A DNA stretch of 32,431 nucleotides, from positions 1 through 32,431 of the forward strand of contig JAAXJF010000002.1 in NCBI GenBank assembly GCA_012269985.1, written 5' to 3'. Under the pieces are notes generated by a model. It made no database searches and was not told the origin of the DNA. It saw only the letters and a list, made by a program, of their open reading frames with translations. Positions 14,254 through 24,155 of this stretch are shown in pieces. This DNA is from Acidimicrobiaceae bacterium (GTDB lineage Bacteria > Actinomycetota > Acidimicrobiia > Acidimicrobiales > Ilumatobacteraceae). Made by a program: the position numbers and the translations under genes. How positions within the stretch are numbered: position 1 is the first letter of the stretch; each line of letters starts with the position of its first letter.

Positions 14254-15270
14254 TTATCTGGATCGTGGTCCAAGATTCGGCCAGTCACGTTCAGGTCGGC
14301 TATTCCTTCCCGAAACCTCCCGGCGCCGCCTGTCAGTAAGCATCCATTTGCGTCGCCAACTTGCTGTTTCGGGACCGCTAAGTCGGTCTGCGGATCCGGT
14401 GGACGCTTTTCGTGCCGCAGTCCAGTAATCGCTCACCGATTCCTCTGTGAGGCGCCCCACCGCTGACTCAATGCGAGCGTTATAACGACGAGTGTTTTCG
14501 TCTTCGAATGACGTAAGCGGTGCCCCGAAAATCACCCGGGTACGGCCTGGTCGCGGTCGTTTCATGCCTTTGCCAAAGATCGCACCGGTGCCCTCAATGT
14601 GAACCGGCACAACAGCAACCCCGGTTTTCGCTGAGAGATACGCAGCTCCACCTTTGAACGGTTGGGCCCAGCCATCCGGTGAGCGACCGCCCTCTGGGTA
14701 GATCAACAGACTCCGTCCGTCATCGATGAGTTCCTTAAAGAGATCGGCAGATTGGCGTCCTGTTGCTTCCCGATCAATCGGAATTGCGTTCAACGCAAGC
14801 GCAGAAAACGTGGCCTTCCAGCGTTTGTCAAAGAAATAGTCGGCCGCTGCGGCAACGACGAGATCCTGTCGCCATGCGGGAGGGATTGCTCGAATCATGA
14901 CAATGGTGTCGAGATGGCTGTGGTGGTCGGGCGCAAAAATAAGCGGCGGCGAGTCGTCCAGACGCGAAAGGTCAGCGAGGCGATCGAGACCGTGGACCTC
15001 GGGGCGGGCGATCACGGCAGTCATTAATTTCAGTGGGCCAGCGATAAACGCTGATCGAGCGACCGATGCGAGAGGGCGGCGTGCCCAATCGGTTTCGAAG
15101 TTGCTGCCAAGAGTGTCAGGCTTTTCAGGAACCTCAATGCCACGGGGCACCGTTGGCGCGCGCCACGGGAAACCGTACTTTGCAAGGGGCTTCGCAACTG
15201 ACCGAATGGTCTGCTCAGCCCGACCGGCGAACTGCTGTGCCCGCTTGGTGATGTGTCGTTTTGAACGCAT
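14254..15270 (-). CDS. PlsC-type 1-acyl-glycerol-3-phosphate acyltransferase
   Basis: This 338-residue protein is a PlsC/LPLAT-family acyltransferase, which moves a fatty acyl group to a (lyso)phospholipid or similar acceptor at the inner membrane face. The catalytic H-x4-D motif is HHSHLD near residues 116-121, and the phosphate-binding EGGRS motif is in YPEGGRSPDG. A Pro-rich VAVVPVHIEG segment completes block IV. The Arg-rich, low-complexity C-terminus (about the last 40 residues) is unusual and probably a membrane-surface or disordered tail. It is the last gene of a four-gene operon, 5 bp after the LarA-like gene. The context suggests the acyl acceptor may be a product of the upstream enzymes rather than ordinary lysophosphatidate. 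Confidence 0.85.
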   Translation of the reverse strand: MRSKRHITKRAQQFAGRAEQTIRSVAKPLAKYGFPWRAPTVPRGIEVPEKPDTLGSNFETDWARRPLASVARSAFIAGPLKLMTAVIARPEVHGLDRLADLSRLDDSPPLIFAPDHHSHLDTIVMIRAIPPAWRQDLVVAAAADYFFDKRWKATFSALALNAIPIDREATGRQSADLFKELIDDGRSLLIYPEGGRSPDGWAQPFKGGAAYLSAKTGVAVVPVHIEGTGAIFGKGMKRPRPGRTRVIFGAPLTSFEDENTRRYNARIESAVGRLTEESVSDYWTAARKASTGSADRLSGPETASWRRKWMLTDRRRREVSGRNSRPERDWPNLGPRSR

Positions 15271-15275
15271 CAGAA

Positions 15276-16862
15276 CTATTTCACGTCGGCAACGAGAACA
15301 GACGGTACGTGAAGGTGGGTAATGGAAGGGGAGCGGCCGACAACATCGCTTGCCAACTCAAACGCATCGTCCATCGTCGACGCAGGGGTGAATCCCATAC
15401 GTCGCACTGCTGTGGGATCACCTCCAACGATGATGACTTTGCCGGCCCACTGCTGACCATGCGCGCCCCAGTACCAGGCGTAGAACGGATGAACGCCGTG
15501 ATAGGCGTTACCGGTTCGGTAAAGGTGGCGATACCACTCGTCTTCGGCGTACCGCTTTTCCCACTTCTCTGACATGACGGCAGGGTCGGTGGTGTCAGCG
15601 AGAACTTCATCGAAGAAGTCGATGTAGCTCGGGTGATGAACAGGATGGAAATCTCGATACGTCGGGTGGGTCATGATGATGACACCTCCCTCGCGAACGA
15701 GCGGTTTGTTGCGGTACATGTTGAACATGTAGCCAAGTCCCATACACATCACGAGAATCGGATTCATGATCGATTCAGGGTTGTACGGACTGATGAATGG
15801 CACGCCGAGAGTCAAAATGTCAGTTTGGCCTTCAACCTCGACGATGTGCTGGCGGTACACATCTTCAAGAGTCCGTTCATGAACGCTTTCGGTGAAACCG
15901 GCGTAGACGCCGGTCATCGCATACGGCGCCTCAATTCCGTGAAAGATTTTCCGGGCGGCGCGCCGAGGCATACGGTCTAACGTTTTGGCAGTTGCGAGAT
16001 AGGTCATTCGGTCGCGAGCTGTCCACTCCCATTCGCGTTTTGAGAGAAAATCAAATGGTGATGGAAATGCGTCGGTGTTGATCGTTGATTCGATTTGGAA
16101 CACCTTTGGCCCGCTGTCACGTAGCACCTTTCCAAGGCGCCAAATCGAGTGATGAAGGGCGGAATGATGGCGATCCATCAAGCTACGAGTGTTCTGTAGA
16201 GATTCGGGGTTGTGGTGGTAGCTCAAGCATCGATACGAGGCCACCCCGGTGACGAGCGATTTCCAGCCGCCATCCATCGCAACCTGATTGACGTTTGCGT
16301 AGACGACGAGGTCTGATTCAGCGACCCGACGGTTGATCTCAAGAACTTCGCCGTGATCGGTTTCTCCGAGGACTGCGAGATTCTCGGGGTCTTCCGCATC
16401 ATGCTGGTAGAGCGTTCCGTTGGGAGCGAATGCATCAAAGATTCGATCGCCGAGCACGTGACGTAGTTCGTAGTCGTGCATGCGACGGTGAAGGCCAAGC
16501 GCCGCAATGATGTGGACATCATCGACTCCGGCCTCTGCAGCTAGATCGAGTACCGCTTCGATAATCCGTTGGCGCGAATCGGGACGACGCATCTTTGGTA
16601 GCGAGAGACTTGCGTCATCGAAGCAAATGGTGAGCTTCATATCGGCGTGAAGAAGGGCGCGAAGTGGCTCCATATCGAGAGGATTCTCAAGAGCATCACG
16701 AATCGCAGATTGTGGGTCTTCGAGACCTGGGAACGACTCTGCGGGATAAATCACTCGGCTGCGGTCAGCCGGAAGTCGCTCGAGGCTGAACTTCTCCCCA
16801 TGCCAGAACAGCATTGGCGGCGTTGAGCGATCAACGTCTAAGACAAATCCGGGACGTGGCAT
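15276..16862 (-). CDS. LarA-family (DUF2088) nickel-pincer racemase-like protein
   Basis: This 528-residue protein resembles LarA, the lactate racemase that carries a nickel-pincer nucleotide cofactor. His125 (ALGLHRRM), Lys201 (DGGWKSLVTG) and His217 (SYHHNPES) match LarA His108, Lys184 and His200 with identical spacing (76 and 16 residues). Lys184 holds the cofactor and His200 binds nickel. The second LarA catalytic base, His174, should lie 10 residues before the Lys, but there is no His there (the stretch is NVNQVAMD), and the DxTRP motif is altered to DDASLSLP. A changed substrate or reaction is therefore likely. Cofactor genes larB, larC and larE are absent from the window. Its ATG overlaps the dehydrogenase stop by one base (TAATG). 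Its role within a lipid-type operon is unexplained. Confidence 0.8.
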   Translation of the reverse strand: MPRPGFVLDVDRSTPPMLFWHGEKFSLERLPADRSRVIYPAESFPGLEDPQSAIRDALENPLDMEPLRALLHADMKLTICFDDASLSLPKMRRPDSRQRIIEAVLDLAAEAGVDDVHIIAALGLHRRMHDYELRHVLGDRIFDAFAPNGTLYQHDAEDPENLAVLGETDHGEVLEINRRVAESDLVVYANVNQVAMDGGWKSLVTGVASYRCLSYHHNPESLQNTRSLMDRHHSALHHSIWRLGKVLRDSGPKVFQIESTINTDAFPSPFDFLSKREWEWTARDRMTYLATAKTLDRMPRRAARKIFHGIEAPYAMTGVYAGFTESVHERTLEDVYRQHIVEVEGQTDILTLGVPFISPYNPESIMNPILVMCMGLGYMFNMYRNKPLVREGGVIIMTHPTYRDFHPVHHPSYIDFFDEVLADTTDPAVMSEKWEKRYAEDEWYRHLYRTGNAYHGVHPFYAWYWGAHGQQWAGKVIIVGGDPTAVRRMGFTPASTMDDAFELASDVVGRSPSITHLHVPSVLVADVK

Positions 16863-18058
16863 TAGTGGTCCTCTCGTAGATCGAAAGCAATTTTTACGGC
16901 GCCGCGCCGTCCAGCGGAGGCGGCATGGGCGAGCGCCTCAACATGCTCGTCGAGGCGATAGGTGGCAGAGAGCAGGCGTTCGGCATCGATACGTTCGGCG
17001 AGGGCAAGGGCAAGATCGAAGGTTCGCACATCGGCTCCATCGATGTGTTCGGTGCCATAGGTGTACGCGCCCAGCAACGCAACCTCACGATGCCACAGGG
17101 GAGTGAGGTCGAGTTTGGTGTCTCCGGGCATACCGAGCACAACAGCTGCGCCTCGTGGGCGAGTGATGTTGATCGACAACGCAATCGATGCACTGTCGCC
17201 GACGGCATTGATCGTTGCGTGCGCTCCCGACGACAGGCTCGCTCCAATGCGGTGGGCACCCGACATACGACGCACAGCCCGAGAAAGTTCGTCGCCTGGA
17301 GCAACCACGTCAGCCCCAAGACCTTTTGCGAACCTCATCTGGTGGGGGTAACGAGCTCCGGCAATAATCCGGGCATTCGGCAGTGCGCCGCGAACGGCAG
17401 CAATGGCACCCAATCCCATTGTGCCCGCACCGAGAACGGCAATGATGGGTGACTCGGTGTCGGTGAGATGGTGATTCGTGTGTTGCGTTGCAATGAGCGC
17501 GGCGTGAACAGAGCCTGCGAGGGGTTCAACCAGTACCGCCGTCTCATCTGACATGTCATCGGGTACCGGATGAAGTTGTGACTCGTGCGCCCAAAACCAC
17601 GGTGCCCAGCCCCCTCCGGTTGAGCAGCAGAAACCGGTTTGAATTCCGGGCTTCAGGTGTCCTCGAACGAGGTGGGCGTAGTCGTCTCCATCGGCGGGTG
17701 CTGCAGATTCCCATGGTGGCACAGAGCCACGAGCGGCATGTCCGAGAACTGGTTCGATCACAACACGCTGACCAGACTCAAGTTCCCCAATGATCTCATG
17801 CCCGGGAATCAACGGAAATGAGACGAAGTCTTCAAAGTAGGTAGACGCATGGCCATCGATGAGCGCAAGATCTGAACCGCAAATTCCAGCGAGCCGAGTG
17901 GTGACTTTCGACCAGCCCAAACCGGCTGGTTCAGGGGGGTCATCAACGTTCCGTAAATGAACTGGTGCAATCCGAGCCGAGGCTTTCGGGCTCGTGACAG
18001 AGAGCAGGCGAGCAGCACCGAATCGCCGAACATTGTGTTGAACTTGCAGCGCTCTCAC
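16862..18058 (-). CDS. Zinc-dependent medium-chain dehydrogenase lacking the structural zinc site
   Basis: This 398-residue protein is an MDR-family alcohol/polyol dehydrogenase. The catalytic zinc ligands are in place: Cys60 (GICGSD), His87-Glu88 (PGHEI) and Glu178 (VEPLAGS). The Rossmann fold follows at AVLGAGTMGLGA. The lobe that normally carries four structural-zinc cysteines (about residues 105-130, HAARGSVPPWESAAPADGDD) has no Cys, although the surrounding RGxxPP framework is kept. The GTG start overlaps the stop of the reductase-phosphatase gene by 4 bases, so the two are coupled. The context suggests it oxidises or reduces an alcohol or aldehyde linked to the neighbouring reductase; the substrate is not known. 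Confidence 0.85.
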   Translation of the reverse strand: MRALQVQHNVRRFGAARLLSVTSPKASARIAPVHLRNVDDPPEPAGLGWSKVTTRLAGICGSDLALIDGHASTYFEDFVSFPLIPGHEIIGELESGQRVVIEPVLGHAARGSVPPWESAAPADGDDYAHLVRGHLKPGIQTGFCCSTGGGWAPWFWAHESQLHPVPDDMSDETAVLVEPLAGSVHAALIATQHTNHHLTDTESPIIAVLGAGTMGLGAIAAVRGALPNARIIAGARYPHQMRFAKGLGADVVAPGDELSRAVRRMSGAHRIGASLSSGAHATINAVGDSASIALSINITRPRGAAVVLGMPGDTKLDLTPLWHREVALLGAYTYGTEHIDGADVRTFDLALALAERIDAERLLSATYRLDEHVEALAHAASAGRRGAVKIAFDLREDH

Positions 18059-20403
18059 AGGAACTGCCTCCGTTGTTCACGTTCAGATAGCAGCGGGCCA
18101 ATCGGAAGAAGATTCCGGGGACCTCCCTTTGCCTTTGACCAATGTTCAACCAGCCATCCTCGTTTTCTCGCAATCGACGCGAGGCGGGTTTCGGGATTCA
18201 CTGCGACAGGAAAACCGACCGCTTCGAAGAGGGGTAGGTCGGAAGAAGAATCTGCGTACGCCACACATTCGTCGAGACGAAGATTCTCTGCATCGCAATA
18301 TTCAGCCAGGATCTGGGCACGTGCCTCGCCGGTTGGCGGCACGGTCGTCATCTCACCTGAGAGGGTGCCATCGGGCCGGACCGTCATCTCGGCGGCGACG
18401 ATCTCATCAAAGAGGGGGCGCAAACCTGCGACGTTGAACGAAAGTGCGCCGGTGATGAGGACGGTGCGGTGGCCGGCAGCTCGGTGAGCCCTTACACGCC
18501 GTATTCCCTCAGGAAAGCACTTTGAGATGATGAGTCCGGTGAGCATCGCCTCGACATCGGTGTCGATTTGTTCAACAGGTGCATCTGCATATCGGCGATA
18601 GAAGTGGCGTAAAAAGTCGGTGCGGTCGCGCCGATCCATCCGGAGTAGGCCAGGCGCCTCGGCAAGAGTGCGTGCAACATATTTGAGCCGCTCGCGTCCG
18701 TCGAGACGGCGGGTGGCGAGCCATGAGTAGCTTTCGACAACGTTCGACGCAATGAGGGTGTTTTCGAGGTCGAATGCGGCGACCTGACGTTTCGGGTCAA
18801 GTACCTGGCCGCGAAGGCGCGTCGTACGGTCTGCCGTTTTGACTTTGCCGGGAGTGCTCTTCACGCGGGCGTGTTCGATAATTGACGGCAGGTGAATTTC
18901 GTGGACGTAGTGGGTCCAATCGATCACTCGTGGGTCGAAACAGAATGCGTCGCGGTCGGTGTCGGGCATCTCATTCCATAGGCGCATGAGGTTGTCGACC
19001 TGATAGATCGCTTCGCACTCGGTGTAGAGGCCGTAAAGCTCGACGTATTCAAGGGCTCGCTCTACTTCGAGACGCCGGGTCTCCAAGGTGGCAGCGAACT
19101 CAGCCTGGCGCCCTCGAAGCGGCAACATCTGCATTGTGTGTTCGGCACGTTCGATCGCAGTCTTCGCCCGAGATAACTGGGTCTGTACCTTGCCGCGACC
19201 AGGGAATCGCCATTCGGGAACGACGATTGGTTGCCCGTCATTGTCATACAGCGGATTCTCGGTGAACCAACTGCTCACGTGATTGACGAGAGTTCGATAT
19301 TTCAGCGGATTGATTCCACCGGAGGCAACCTGTGTGATGGCCGGCGCGTCATCTGGGCCTGCTGCAGCAACTGCAATGATGGCGGCAACCACGATGTCAA
19401 CCGGTATGACGTCGATGGTGCCTTCTGGAACGCCAGGGAATTCTTTGAGAAGCCCTCGTGCGTAGCTGATGATGACTGGTTCTGCCATACGAAAGCCGCG
19501 AATCCAACCGGGACGAGGTTCTGCCCATGCGGACTCGATAATTGACGGACGCACAATAGAGACAGGAACATTTCCTTTTGACTCGGTAAGCGCTTGTTCA
19601 CCCAAGGCCTTTGTGAACGCATACGCATCAGGCCAACCGACCGAGGCCGCACGTGAACGGCCTGCGCCGACCAATTGATCTCGCACCCAGCGTTCACGCA
19701 GCTGTTCTGTTTTTGCAGCAAGAGCGGGAGCGCCAGCGGCACCAAGTTCGCTTCGGGCTCGTTTGCGAAACTCGCTGAGGCGTTCGGGCTGGCGTGATGA
19801 GGCCTCGGTATCGCCTTTGAGCCGCCGGGCAGATGCGACTTCGTCTTTCCACTCGAGTCCGATGGCGAATGGCCCCTCTGACACAAGTTCTTCGGGTGCT
19901 GTTCCTCGACGGTTGCCTGCCACGTAACAGGTTGACACTGCAACGAGGTGGGGAGTGATGCCCAAGTCGTTGCATAACTGCGCAATGCGGACGGGGCCGA
20001 GAAGGTTGATCTCAACGGCTTGGTCTAACGGAGAGTCGAATGAGACTGTTGCTGCTGAGTGAATGATGGTGTCGGCGGTGGAAAAGATCATTCGGTCTTC
20101 ATCAGAAAGGCCAAGTCCGTCGGCGCTGACATCACCCGCAATGGTGGTAATTCTTCGCGCGCACATGTCGTCAAACGACTCGTCAGAGGTGGCGTGCTCT
20201 TCCCGCAGGCGGTCGAAGGCATCGTTGGCAAGAATTTCTCTCGCCGTTCTACGAGCAGCAGGGGTGCGGCGGCCGTCGCGAACGAGAAGGATGAGTTCGC
20301 AGTCGGGGACGCCGCGCAGAAGACGTTCAACGAGAGCAGTGCCAACAAAACCCGTTGAACCGGTAATCGCGATGCGCCGTTTGGAGAGTGACTGTGCAAT
20401 CAC
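18055..20403 (-). CDS. Fusion of fatty-acyl-reductase-like SDR and HAD-IB phosphatase
   Basis: This 782-residue fusion begins with an extended SDR of the NAD_binding_4 (male-sterility, thioester reductase) type. It has GSTGFVG at residues 15-21 for NADPH, STCY near 157-160 and the catalytic Tyr261-x3-Lys265 (YAFTK). A linker like the C-terminal domain of acyl-CoA reductases spans about 440-515. The last 240 residues form a HAD-IB hydrolase: motif I is FDLENT (Asp545, with Glu547 where the second Asp is usual), motif II is around Thr651 (ITGA) and motif IV is YADSSSD (Asp718, Asp722). The usual motif III Lys is not evident. SDRs of this type reduce acyl thioesters to aldehydes or alcohols; the HAD half would hydrolyse a phosphate. 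The start is GTG. It is the first gene of the operon and is divergent from the TetR gene. Confidence 0.85.
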   Translation of the reverse strand: MIAQSLSKRRIAITGSTGFVGTALVERLLRGVPDCELILLVRDGRRTPAARRTAREILANDAFDRLREEHATSDESFDDMCARRITTIAGDVSADGLGLSDEDRMIFSTADTIIHSAATVSFDSPLDQAVEINLLGPVRIAQLCNDLGITPHLVAVSTCYVAGNRRGTAPEELVSEGPFAIGLEWKDEVASARRLKGDTEASSRQPERLSEFRKRARSELGAAGAPALAAKTEQLRERWVRDQLVGAGRSRAASVGWPDAYAFTKALGEQALTESKGNVPVSIVRPSIIESAWAEPRPGWIRGFRMAEPVIISYARGLLKEFPGVPEGTIDVIPVDIVVAAIIAVAAAGPDDAPAITQVASGGINPLKYRTLVNHVSSWFTENPLYDNDGQPIVVPEWRFPGRGKVQTQLSRAKTAIERAEHTMQMLPLRGRQAEFAATLETRRLEVERALEYVELYGLYTECEAIYQVDNLMRLWNEMPDTDRDAFCFDPRVIDWTHYVHEIHLPSIIEHARVKSTPGKVKTADRTTRLRGQVLDPKRQVAAFDLENTLIASNVVESYSWLATRRLDGRERLKYVARTLAEAPGLLRMDRRDRTDFLRHFYRRYADAPVEQIDTDVEAMLTGLIISKCFPEGIRRVRAHRAAGHRTVLITGALSFNVAGLRPLFDEIVAAEMTVRPDGTLSGEMTTVPPTGEARAQILAEYCDAENLRLDECVAYADSSSDLPLFEAVGFPVAVNPETRLASIARKRGWLVEHWSKAKGGPRNLLPIGPLLSEREQRRQFL

Positions 20404-20423
20404 ATCTATAGTTCTATCACGTC

Positions 20424-20439
20424 TCTACCATTTGGTAGA
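20424..20439. promoter_or_regulatory. Palindromic operator between the TetR gene and the lipid-like operon
   Basis: TCTACCA (20424-20430) and TGGTAGA (20433-20439) form a perfect 7+7 palindrome around TT, in the 57-bp gap between the divergent GTG starts at 20403 and 20461. TetR-family proteins commonly bind such a site and repress both directions. It lies about 20 bases from each start codon, so a bound dimer would block both promoters. Confidence 0.65.
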
Positions 20440-21221: not shown

Positions 21222-21611
21222 ATGAAAATTGCTCTCACAAGTATCTTTGTCGATGACCAGCAGATCGCCCGTGCGTTTTACACCGAAAAACTTGGATTCA
21301 GGGTGAAACACAATGTGCCAATGGGTGACCACTCGTGGTTGACAGTGACTTCTCCCCAGAGCCCGGACGGGCCGGAACTTTTGTTGGAACCGGCAAGTCA
21401 CCCCGCGGTAAAGCCCTATCGGGATGCATTAGTTGCAGATGGGATTGCTCTCGCACAATTCGAGGTGGAAAATGTGGAAGCCGAGGTTGAGCGTCTTACG
21501 CACCGGGGTGTCCGATTCACTCAACCACCAACTGCGGTGGGCCCGGTGACAATCGCTGTATTTGACGACACGTGCGGAAACCTCATCATGATTCAGTCAT
21601 CTTCTTCATAA
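21222..21611 (+). CDS. VOC-superfamily (glyoxalase/dioxygenase-fold) protein
   Basis: This 129-residue single-domain protein has the paired beta-alpha-beta-beta-beta modules of the vicinal-oxygen-chelate fold. It begins with the strand KIALTSIFVDD and the helix ARAFYTEKLGFRV, and ends with the strand pair TIAVFDDTCGNLIMIQ. Members include glyoxalase I, extradiol dioxygenases and antibiotic-binding proteins. The usual N-terminal metal-binding His is not present (TSIFVDD), so metal dependence is uncertain and the substrate unknown. The ATG is preceded by GTGAGGTA, a good ribosome-binding site. It stands alone, convergent with ddl across a 131-bp gap. Confidence 0.8.
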   Translation: MKIALTSIFVDDQQIARAFYTEKLGFRVKHNVPMGDHSWLTVTSPQSPDGPELLLEPASHPAVKPYRDALVADGIALAQFEVENVEAEVERLTHRGVRFTQPPTAVGPVTIAVFDDTCGNLIMIQSSSS

Positions 21612-21742: not shown

Positions 21743-22834
21743 CTAGCGCGCAGTGTTCCGAACCCTCGACGAGTGGCGTTCTACGGCGAGGTCAACAAGG
21801 TTGTTGATGAGGGTTGCATACGTCATGCCACTTGCGGTGACCATCTTCGGGTACATCGAAATCGGAGTGAACCCTGGCATCGTGTTCAACTCGTTAAACA
21901 ACACCCCTCGCCCGTGCTCCTCGAAGAAAAAGTCACACCGAGCGAGGCCTGAACAGCCAAGAGAGGAAAACACGCGAACTGCAAGATCAGTGACTTCAGT
22001 AGCGACGTCCTCCGGCAACTGGGCGGGAAGCTCCGACGTTGAGTTTCCGTCAAGGTACTTATCTGAGTACGAGTAGAAACTGTCAGCCGGAATCACCTCT
22101 CCCGGTGGAAATGCGATCGGAGACTCATTGCCGAGCACTGCGCCCTCAATTTCTCGTCCATCAATTCCTTCTTCCACGAGGACAGAAGAGTCGAACGTAA
22201 AAGCAAGTTTGACTGCGGCTGCAAGATCCTGAGGGCCTTCGACACGCGAGACGCCAACCGATGAACCCATGTTTGCTGGCTTCACGAAACACGGGTAACC
22301 CAGTTCAAGCTCGACACGTTGGGCAATCGATGCCATCGCTTGCAGATCTGCGGTGGTCAACGTGAAGTAGCGAGGAATCGGAATACCGGCTGACGCAGCG
22401 ACGGTCTTCGCCATCGACTTATCCATCGCGAGCGCAGATCCGAGCACACCAGAGCCGACATATGCCACATCGAGCACCTCAAGCAGACCTTGAATCGTGC
22501 CATCTTCGCCGAGTGGGCCATGCAATAACGGAACCACGACAATCTGCTCGGCCGATGATGCAGAAAGCTCGGCAACGAGGTTGAACGGATTAACGGGCAC
22601 GCCCTCAGTCGAAAGGCTTCCATCTTCAGCCAGATCGTGATTCGACTCTGAAAATGGGTCGCTCACGCGATTCCATTGCCCGTCTTTGGTGATGCCAATG
22701 ACTGTGACATCGTGAAGTGATCGATCGATGGCGGCGGCCACGTGCCATGCGGTTGTGCAACTGACATCGTGTTCTGCCGAACGCCCACCAAAGACGACGA
22801 CAAGGTGGGTGCGAAGTTTGGCCACGACCTTCAC
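21743..22834 (-). CDS. ddl: D-alanine--D-alanine ligase
   Basis: This enzyme joins two D-alanines with ATP to supply the dipeptide that MurF adds to the peptidoglycan precursor. The 363 residues form an ATP-grasp enzyme with VVFGGRSAEHDVS at the N-terminus, LHGPLGEDGTIQG (a signature of the family), the ATP-grasp FVKPANMGSSVGVS, and the closing FNELNTMPGFTP with metal-binding Glu and Asn. The frame extends upstream to a TTG at 22921, but the GTG at 22834 is chosen because it has AGGGA about 7 bases upstream and puts the first strand at the N-terminus. That start leaves only 16 bp to the divergent murF start, so the promoters must lie partly inside the opposite gene. It is convergent with the VOC gene. 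Confidence 0.9.
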   Translation of the reverse strand: MKVVAKLRTHLVVVFGGRSAEHDVSCTTAWHVAAAIDRSLHDVTVIGITKDGQWNRVSDPFSESNHDLAEDGSLSTEGVPVNPFNLVAELSASSAEQIVVVPLLHGPLGEDGTIQGLLEVLDVAYVGSGVLGSALAMDKSMAKTVAASAGIPIPRYFTLTTADLQAMASIAQRVELELGYPCFVKPANMGSSVGVSRVEGPQDLAAAVKLAFTFDSSVLVEEGIDGREIEGAVLGNESPIAFPPGEVIPADSFYSYSDKYLDGNSTSELPAQLPEDVATEVTDLAVRVFSSLGCSGLARCDFFFEEHGRGVLFNELNTMPGFTPISMYPKMVTASGMTYATLINNLVDLAVERHSSRVRNTAR

Positions 22835-22850
22835 GGTACTGTCCCTAGTT

Positions 22851-24155
22851 GTGCAGTTGAAGGCATCAGAAGTTGCGTCAGCAATCGGAGGTCGCCTTAT
22901 CGGTGATGACGTGTTGATCAATGGCGTTCATTTCGACTCGCGAGCCGACATCCAACGCTGTATGTTCGTCGCAATTCGCGCTGAGCGGAACGGTCACGAC
23001 TTCGTGCCAGACGCGTTCTCTCGGGGTGCAAGTTGCGCGTTGGTTTCTGAAGATGTTGACGATGTGGCGGGTTCACTCATCGTTGTTGATGACACGATGC
23101 AGGCGTTCTCTGATCTAGCAACACACGTCCGCTCACAGCAGTTATCAGATGTTGCCGTAGTTGGAGTGACGGGCAGTGTGGGTAAGACCTCAACGAAGAA
23201 TCTCATCGCTGGAGCTCTGAGTTCCACTGCGGTATGGGCAAGCCCAAAGAGTTTCAATAATGAACAGGGAGTTCCCTTCACGCTCATCAACACCCCCAGC
23301 GGCGCGCGCACGGTGGTGGTCGAAATGGGAATGCGCGGATTCGGCGAGATCACGCACTTGTGCGATGTGGCCTCGCCAACTATTGGAGTTGTCACTCGCG
23401 TAGGGCAGGCACACACCGCCCGCCTTGGTGGAATCGAAGGGGTCGCTAAGGCCAAGGCGGAACTTGTTGCGTCGCTTCCAACCTCGGGCACCGCAGTGTT
23501 GAACGCCGACGATGAACGCGTGCTCGCAATGTCGGCAATCGCTCCGGGTGCGGTGGTGACCTACGGTCAGCACGGCAACGTCACTCCTACCGAAGTTCAT
23601 TTTGATGCGTTCGGTCGAGCGCGATTTCGTTTTGATTCACCGTGGGGTTCAGCCCAGGTTGCCCTGCAGGTGGCGGGGAAGCACATGATGAGCAATGCAC
23701 TCGCCGCCATCGCGGTCGGAGGTGTGTTGAGGGTTTCTTTGGAGGAAATCGTGGATGGACTTGAGGCCGTGGAGCCGGAGGATCACCGAATGGTGGTCCA
23801 CGAATTGGCATCAGGTTCACTCCTCATCGATGACTGCTACAACGCAAACCCGACTTCAGTTGTTGCAGCATTGCGCACATTGGCCGACCTTGATGTGAGC
23901 CGGCGAATCGCGGTGCTGGGAGAGATGGCAGAGGTTGACGATCCTGTTGCCGCTCATCGGTCGGTTGCCGAAACCGCATCTCACTTGGGGATCGGGGTCA
24001 TTCCGATCATGACCGACTTGTACGGCGAAGAGGGATCAGATGTGCTGCCCGCTTCCGTCATGGAGATGCTCACCACAGGAGACACCGCGGTGTTAGTGAA
24101 GGGAAGTCGGGTTGCTGGTCTTGAACGGATCGTTGAAGAGATACTTCACCGTTAA
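22851..24155 (+). CDS. murF: UDP-N-acetylmuramoyl-tripeptide--D-alanyl-D-alanine ligase
   Basis: MurF adds D-Ala-D-Ala to UDP-MurNAc-tripeptide, the last cytoplasmic step of the pentapeptide precursor. The 434 residues hold the N-terminal substrate domain, the ATP P-loop VTGSVGKTSTKNL, FNNEQGVPFTL, and the typical DDCYNANPTS near the C-terminal domain. The start is taken as the GTG at 22851, where the family N-terminus begins; an ATG at 22728 would lie inside ddl and adds 41 unrelated residues. No ribosome-binding site is seen, but TACTGT (22837-22842) 8 bases before the GTG could be a -10 for a leaderless message. Placing it opposite ddl pairs the two D-Ala-D-Ala steps. Its stop overlaps the stop of the MFS gene by 4 bases. 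Confidence 0.93.
   Translation: MQLKASEVASAIGGRLIGDDVLINGVHFDSRADIQRCMFVAIRAERNGHDFVPDAFSRGASCALVSEDVDDVAGSLIVVDDTMQAFSDLATHVRSQQLSDVAVVGVTGSVGKTSTKNLIAGALSSTAVWASPKSFNNEQGVPFTLINTPSGARTVVVEMGMRGFGEITHLCDVASPTIGVVTRVGQAHTARLGGIEGVAKAKAELVASLPTSGTAVLNADDERVLAMSAIAPGAVVTYGQHGNVTPTEVHFDAFGRARFRFDSPWGSAQVALQVAGKHMMSNALAAIAVGGVLRVSLEEIVDGLEAVEPEDHRMVVHELASGSLLIDDCYNANPTSVVAALRTLADLDVSRRIAVLGEMAEVDDPVAAHRSVAETASHLGIGVIPIMTDLYGEEGSDVLPASVMEMLTTGDTAVLVKGSRVAGLERIVEEILHR

Follow-up and report, generated by a model that had tools for sequence, protein, structure and literature searches.

A conserved actinobacterial operon linking a fatty acyl reductase–phosphatase fusion to a LarA homologue, and its possible role in ether-lipid synthesis

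Aerobic ether-lipid synthesis is known step by step from eukaryotes, and the route through alkylglycerol-phosphate synthase (AGPS) needs a fatty alcohol, an acyltransferase and a ketone reductase. Ester-to-ether reductases of the PlsA/Ger type form another route, and a third, the ElbD route to alkyl ethers, is encoded by the elb operon of Myxococcus xanthus, which specifies a fatty acyl reductase (FAR)-like domain, a HAD protein and an acyltransferase resembling acylglycerol-phosphate acyltransferases, and in which the function of ElbC is given as uncharacterised in the excerpted text of PMC9131029. Bacteria of the order Rubrobacterales contain about 46% ether-linked phospholipids among their core lipids, as cited in an excerpt of PMC10821996. 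In this paper, we have analysed a stretch of 32,431 nucleotides, hereafter the window, from an Acidimicrobiaceae bacterium (assembly GCA_012269985.1, contig JAAXJF010000002.1), which belongs to a 90,965-bp contig of a 2.15-Mb genome and carries four genes for a FAR-HAD fusion, a zinc-dependent dehydrogenase, a LarA homologue (LarAH) and a PlsC-type acyltransferase, next to a divergent gene for a TetR-family regulator (Table 1). We have established by computation the operon, its conservation, its operator, its co-occurrence across genomes, the cofactor genes that accompany it and the active-site residues that its products retain. We infer, with a probability of about one half, that the product of the operon is a glycerophospholipid derived from a fatty alcohol, probably a 1-O-alkyl ether, formed under the control of TetR with an enzyme of the nickel-pincer nucleotide (NPN) type in a central step.

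Table 1. Features of the operon and its neighbourhood in the window
Feature	Position	Strand	Family or evidence
PlsC-type 1-acylglycerol-phosphate acyltransferase, 338 aa	14254-15270	-	PF01553, 65.6 bits
LarA homologue, LarAH14/15/16 family, 528 aa	15276-16862	-	Lar_N; NF052592
Zinc-dependent medium-chain dehydrogenase, 398 aa	16862-18058	-	ADH_N + ADH_zinc_N (Pfam)
FAR-HAD fusion, 782 aa	18055-20403	-	NAD_binding_4 + Sterile + HAD (Pfam, NCBIfam)
TetR operator TCTACCATTTGGTAGA	20424-20439	no strand	palindrome in divergent spacer
Divergent TetR-family regulator, 198 aa	20461-21057	+	TetR_N, PF00440
D-alanine-D-alanine ligase homologue	21743-22921	-	convergent with TetR
Mur ligase	22728-24155	+	neighbour of the ligase homologue

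The four genes are packed closely: FAR-HAD and the dehydrogenase share a 4-bp GTGA overlap (18055-18058), the dehydrogenase and LarA overlap by 1 bp at 16862 (TAATG), and 5 bp (15271-15275) separate LarA from PlsC, so that the open reading frame coordinates and the reading of the junctions bear out the first-pass annotation, which had described four overlapping or nearly touching minus-strand genes. The spacer between the TetR and reductase genes holds a palindrome with the half-sites TCTACCA and TGGTAGA around a central TT. The pattern TCTACCANNTGGTAGA occurs once in the genome of the window, and once each in nine of the ten genomes searched (never in G005), the reversed control pattern having no site. 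Of the 55 TetR-FAR spacers compared, counting that of the window, 45 hold the exact operator and 48 hold it when one mismatch is allowed; among 1092 control stretches from these loci, none holds it at up to one mismatch. The single occurrence per genome, the spacer counts and the empty controls together indicate that the operator is more than a product of chance. A divergent TetR gene with a perfect operator at the head of the operon, as had been claimed from the window alone, is thus confirmed by the recurrence of the palindrome in homologous spacers and its absence from the controls; judged from this pattern, the regulator looks like a local one with a single site.

The conservation of the operon was followed in 80 named loci, which are those closest by LarAH similarity and hence biased towards Acidimicrobiales; loci with room for the gene in question were counted, and a gene was scored as not found when its tblastn match was below 60 bits or lay beyond a set distance. 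FAR-HAD adjoins LarAH in 67/67 of these loci, PlsC in 74/74 and the dehydrogenase in 58/72, all three genes stand together with it in 52 of 63, and a divergent TetR homologue lies beside FAR-HAD in 55 of 59. Among 14 loci of other families outside the order (L121-L132, L153 and L154; Rubrobacteraceae were treated separately), the dehydrogenase and LarAH are kept in all 14, and FAR-HAD and PlsC in 13 each, the two misses falling at contig ends; a TetR homologue was matched in eight of them, once divergent and seven times on the same strand downstream of PlsC. The retention of the gene order through Acidimicrobiales and in other families answers the check in relatives that the first-pass annotation had proposed and had also named as a possible refutation.

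The same association was found in a sample of 296 Actinomycetota genomes, each at least 90% complete, in which a genome was assigned to the LarAH14 class when its match to profile A1 exceeded 550 bits (with the addition of the contig-edge fragment G173), weaker LarA matches, in 42 of the 106 matching genomes, being kept outside the class. The FAR-HAD fusion occurs in 64/64 LarAH14 genomes and in 2/232 genomes without LarAH14 (G080 and G261); within the order, the corresponding figures are 18/18 and 0/9. By these matches the gene set is common to many early-branching actinobacteria. Because of the single operator site, the conserved order, the nearly one-to-one occurrence of LarAH14 with FAR-HAD and the presence of larB, larC and larE (see below), the four genes and TetR are almost certainly, on the comparative sequence evidence, one coupled and regulated unit, and the proposal of a single unit made from the window stands.

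Among the enzymes of the operon, the reductase finds its nearest solved chain in 7eoz, a fatty acyl-CoA reductase (E 1.3e-65), and combines NAD_binding_4 and Sterile domains with the Ser/Thr-Tyr-Lys site, whose Y261 and K265 are invariant in 18 aligned sequences; it is predicted to convert an acyl thioester to a fatty alcohol, with the alcohol rather than the aldehyde only as product. The HAD domain, similar to HAD-IB phosphatases, has D545, D718 and D722 invariant in 18 sequences, and the second Asp of its DxDx(T/V) motif is replaced by Glu in the window protein and in several further sequences and kept in the three Rubrobacteraceae rows. The dehydrogenase, with C60, H87, E88 and E178 invariant in 11 sequences, is closest to the solved chains 1e3j and 1pl6, a ketose reductase and a sorbitol dehydrogenase, which corrects the role in alcohol/aldehyde redox first given to it. 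The acyltransferase matches 5kym, a 1-acyl-sn-glycerol-3-phosphate acyltransferase, and the motifs HHSHLD and EGGR can be read in its sequence.

The LarA homologue scores 851.4 bits on NF052592, the LarAH14/15/16 model (curated cut-off 740), and its structural model (pLDDT 85.8) has its best fold match in 9q3k, with TM 0.76 of the query. The catalytic histidine H125, the NPN lysine K201 and the nickel histidine H217 are invariant in 20 of 20 aligned sequences, the latter two aligning to K195 and H211 of LarA_Sp. His174 of L. plantarum LarA, the second catalytic histidine there, has no counterpart, as none of the 20 sequences shows a His at 185-199 before K201; the protein is therefore not a canonical racemase. 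Its earlier designation as a LarA-type enzyme holds for the NPN-site residues and the fold, and fails for the canonical two-histidine racemase. The closest solved structures by both sequence and fold, LarA_Bw (9q3j) and LarA_Sp (9q2u/9q3k), share with it one catalytic histidine, the NPN lysine and the nickel histidine; in those two proteins Asn replaces the second histidine and the genes lie near sugar genes, whereas the window protein has a shortened loop before the NPN lysine in the alignment and stands in a context of lipid synthesis. No reaction is known to us for the LarAH14 group, of which the window member is tied to a lipid operon. The absence of the second catalytic histidine is shared with LarAH groups 14 and 15 (Desguin 2020), for which it is noted in an excerpt of PMC12611868. 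According to the excerpted text of PMC7583248, LarAH14 of Frankia sp. had none of seven tested activities, and LarA homologues short of such residues may run another hydride-mediated reaction. Phytophthora LarAH15 is a gluconate 2-epimerase placed in the GntE branch in an excerpt of PMC11770544, and may or may not correspond to the "15" in the name of NF052592.

A second, more distant LarA type occurs in other actinobacterial families (L138-L143 and L159), beside which the operon genes were not found except for a weak match to the HAD region in L138. Four of its members (L138, L139, L140 and L142) are 37-40% identical to the window LarA and share H125, K201, H217 and the missing second histidine, and two scanned proteins of this type reach 525 and 398 bits on NF052592, under the cut-off.

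Presence of the NPN cofactor genes larB, larC and larE in hosts of the operon had been suggested as a check, and all three were found in the genome of the window, LarB and LarC close together on one contig (C31) and LarE on another (C35), as well as in most good-quality relatives with LarAH. Among 41 relatives, LarB occurs in 30 of 33 with LarAH and one of eight without, LarC in 27 of 33 and one of eight, and LarE in 31 of 33 and three of eight; among 30 good-quality relatives, all three are present in 22/26 with LarAH and none of them in 4/4 without. LarC was also matched in 58 of the 64 LarAH14 genomes and in 113 of the 232 others of the phylum sample, and in the latter it may serve other LarA types. 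Since the cofactor genes track LarAH, and the genome of the window has one LarA-type match only and thus no other client that we found, an NPN-loaded enzyme is supported; the coupling of the operon genes with NPN cofactor supply is, at the level of gene content, well supported. No plasmid-borne relative of the window LarA was found at E 1e-20. The end of larE is overlapped by about 22 bp by a gene for a 335-aa protein (L157 6968-7972, contig C35), which looks like an acyltransferase by eye and had no NCBIfam match at E 1e-10.

Rubrobacteraceae carry a variant of the operon. The family (f39) is tied to Rubrobacter by a 51,047-bp contig of G091, which has the length of the R. radiotolerans plasmid NZ_CP007517.1 and agrees with it at every one of the first 8,000 bases, and by a like identity of G211 to an R. 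tropicus plasmid. In R. radiotolerans, genes for PlsY, FAR-HAD, the dehydrogenase and LarAH (856 bits on NF052592) follow one another with tight spacing. PlsY was found in eight of ten Rubrobacteraceae loci, the other two starting inside FAR-HAD (hence 8/8 with upstream flank), and PlsC had no match in the Rubrobacteraceae loci scanned. Counting the family's genomes with listed matches, so that any without a match would not appear, FAR-HAD occurs in 23/23 and LarAH14 in 22/23; in nine of these 23 genomes (G066, G102, G123, G145, G154, G221, G245, G261 and G269), one in-frame stop falls within the FAR-HAD match. A paper on Rubrobacterales ether lipids reportedly proposes an operon that would make 1-O-alkyl glycerol phosphate and that somewhat resembles one found in other aerobic bacteria; the proposed operon may be the one described here.

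Taken as a pathway, the operon would begin with FAR reducing a long-chain acyl thioester to a fatty alcohol, the chain of which would be attached to a backbone of glycerol phosphate, with a 1-O-alkyl ether as the likeliest linkage. In loci that have it, the dehydrogenase might interconvert the backbone ketone and the secondary alcohol, i.e. species like dihydroxyacetone phosphate and glycerol 3-phosphate, PlsC (PlsY in Rubrobacteraceae) would add an acyl chain, and the HAD domain would take off a phosphate. For the NPN-loaded LarA homologue we hypothesise a central step in which a substrate is oxidised, undergoes chemistry at the neighbouring carbon and is reduced again; having a single catalytic histidine, the enzyme would take the hydride and return it on the same face, and would therefore not racemise. 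The AGPS route has counterparts of three of its steps in the operon, AGPS itself not being there, and it is plausible, by analogy, that each step of aerobic ether-lipid synthesis except AGPS has an operon counterpart in one family or another; LarAH could then occupy the place of AGPS in the pathway. In a bolder form, which we regard as rather unlikely, LarAH14 would be an NPN alkylglycerol-phosphate synthase replacing AGPS: the hydride would come off C2 of 1-acyl-glycerol phosphate to give a ketone, the ketone would let the fatty alcohol displace the C1 acyl group, and the hydride would go back on the same face. The early guess of an unusual, for example ether-containing, lipid gains weight from the PlsY version in Rubrobacteraceae and the share of ether lipids of about 46% cited for Rubrobacterales.

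Compared with the known routes, the operon resembles elb in joining the functions of FAR, HAD and acyltransferase. Two kinds of ElbD domain, acyl-CoA synthetase and acyl carrier protein, are absent from the five window proteins by Pfam, no search for ElbD elsewhere in the genome having been made, and no LarA is described for elb in the excerpt of PMC9131029. The PlsA/Ger reductases would, should the ether reading hold, give end products of the same class, and their route was rejected for these genomes: the marker PF09989 (DUF2229) is in none of 12 operon genomes, four of Rubrobacteraceae included, while four of 14 control genomes were positive. An AGPS-like gene with the HHH motif, which we take to be the signature of AGPS, was found in the genome of the window and in three others of the 12 operon genomes. 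The own gene (L197 5570-7072, contig C74) encodes a protein about 57% identical to that of G265, which matches the solved AGPS chains 2uuu and 4bby, and its neighbours, from their first residues only, resemble a cluster of the glycerol-kinase type. In the phylum sample, AGPS-like genes, a loose class with E up to 1e-45, occur in 19 of 64 operon genomes and 56 of 232 without the operon (p 0.42 in a Fisher test, the tests on phylum counts carrying no correction for kinship). AGPS was rejected as a hidden partner of the operon on account of this independent distribution.

Several results weigh against an ether-lipid operon with LarAH at its centre. An AGPS-like gene lies elsewhere in 13/18 operon genomes of the order, the genome of the window included, so that ether lipids there could come from AGPS. 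No dehydrogenase match was found beside LarAH in 14/72 named loci with room, and the enzyme is therefore not an obligate member; no LarC match was found in 6/64 LarAH14 genomes of the phylum sample, and both kinds of missing match may be due to assembly gaps or other suppliers. In Rubrobacteraceae, a TetR homologue was matched in none of nine loci scanned, and 0.7 to 6.6 kb, in some cases with other genes, separate the dehydrogenase from LarAH in six of ten loci (L133, L135, L136, L150, L152 and L155; the dehydrogenase match of L152 is in three pieces). To our knowledge, NPN enzymes only isomerise hydroxy acids. Group 16, part of the name of NF052592, was set aside as not conserving the NPN site according to an excerpt of PMC7583248; unlike this published view, the site is conserved in the sequences analysed here. 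As for lipids, none of the literature matches listed reports ether lipids from Acidimicrobiia, and two descriptions of such strains give, in the portions available, only routine fatty acids or polar lipids; routine fatty-acid methods would hardly reveal ether lipids. Nor did the matches listed contain a joint treatment of LarA with ether lipids or of DUF2088 with acyl reductases.

The presence of AGPS-like genes leads to one alternative, that the operon only supplies fatty alcohol while an AGPS elsewhere makes the ether and LarAH is peripheral, for instance in the isomerisation of a small metabolite. The HHH-bearing protein of the window's genome and the structural matches of its G265 homologue speak for it; we consider it unlikely, because AGPS-like genes are distributed independently of the operon, being present in 9/9 operon-less genomes of the order in the phylum sample and in none of the 23 listed Rubrobacteraceae, and because a peripheral role does not predict the near-perfect tie of LarAH14 to FAR-HAD. 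About equally improbable is the production of 1,2-diols or another lipid derived from 2-hydroxyacyl chains, in which LarAH would interconvert or oxidise a long-chain 2-hydroxy acid, FAR would turn the 2-hydroxyacyl thioester into a 1,2-diol and PlsC would acylate the product. This is in line with the use of 2-hydroxy acids by characterised LarA enzymes (excerpts of PMC11770544 and PMC7583248) and with a FAR and an acyltransferase in one operon, but inversion would need the second histidine, which is missing from the family, both the phosphatase domain and the Rubrobacteraceae PlsY suggest glycerol phosphate as the backbone, and the five window proteins include no hydroxylase or AMP-ligase family.

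In other bacteria, FAR enzymes are known to supply the alcohol moiety of wax esters, and the operon could accordingly make storage or surface lipids, i.e. wax esters or free fatty alcohols, rather than membrane ether lipids; the odds of this appear lower again, as no wax-synthase family is among the five window proteins, the acyltransferases are the PlsC and PlsY of phospholipid synthesis, and LarAH would be left without a job. The lowest odds by far belong to a role of LarAH in a depsipeptide cell wall, for which it would provide a D-2-hydroxy acid, the purpose that LarA serves in Lactiplantibacillus. It is suggested by the homologue of D-alanine-D-alanine ligase (Ddl) that lies convergent to TetR and recurs in the order, in 66/106 loci there, many of them short or overlapping, but we rejected it since Ddl occurs in 1/24 loci outside the order, is not an operon gene and reads DKY in its omega-loop, which is presumably the motif of the D-Ala-D-Ala type.

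If the preferred reading of a fatty-alcohol-derived glycerophospholipid is correct, the operon is of interest in two respects. The near-perfect association of LarAH14 with a fatty acyl reductase and with acyltransferases of phospholipid synthesis hints at substrates to assay, the published LarAH14 assays on small hydroxy acids having found no activity. In Rubrobacterales, where ether phospholipids are abundant and neither AGPS (0/23 listed Rubrobacteraceae genomes) nor the PlsA/Ger marker (0/4) was found, the operon is a concrete candidate for their synthesis. Should LarAH take part in forming the ether bond, NPN chemistry would reach beyond isomerisation, and an NPN alkylglycerol-phosphate synthase would represent both an NPN enzyme that does not racemise and a new route to the ether bond in biology.

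Two loci titled Bifidobacterium breve (L079) and Acidobacteria (L100) have LarAH proteins 68 and 66% identical to that of the window, with FAR-HAD and the dehydrogenase adjoining as in Acidimicrobiia, and are probably mislabelled genome bins. When 40 long loci from the order were searched for further conserved genes of the operon, the convergent Ddl and the Mur ligase were the recurrent ones among the neighbours identified. In the window itself, a small protein of the glyoxalase (VOC) family is encoded on the plus strand at 21222-21611, between TetR and Ddl.

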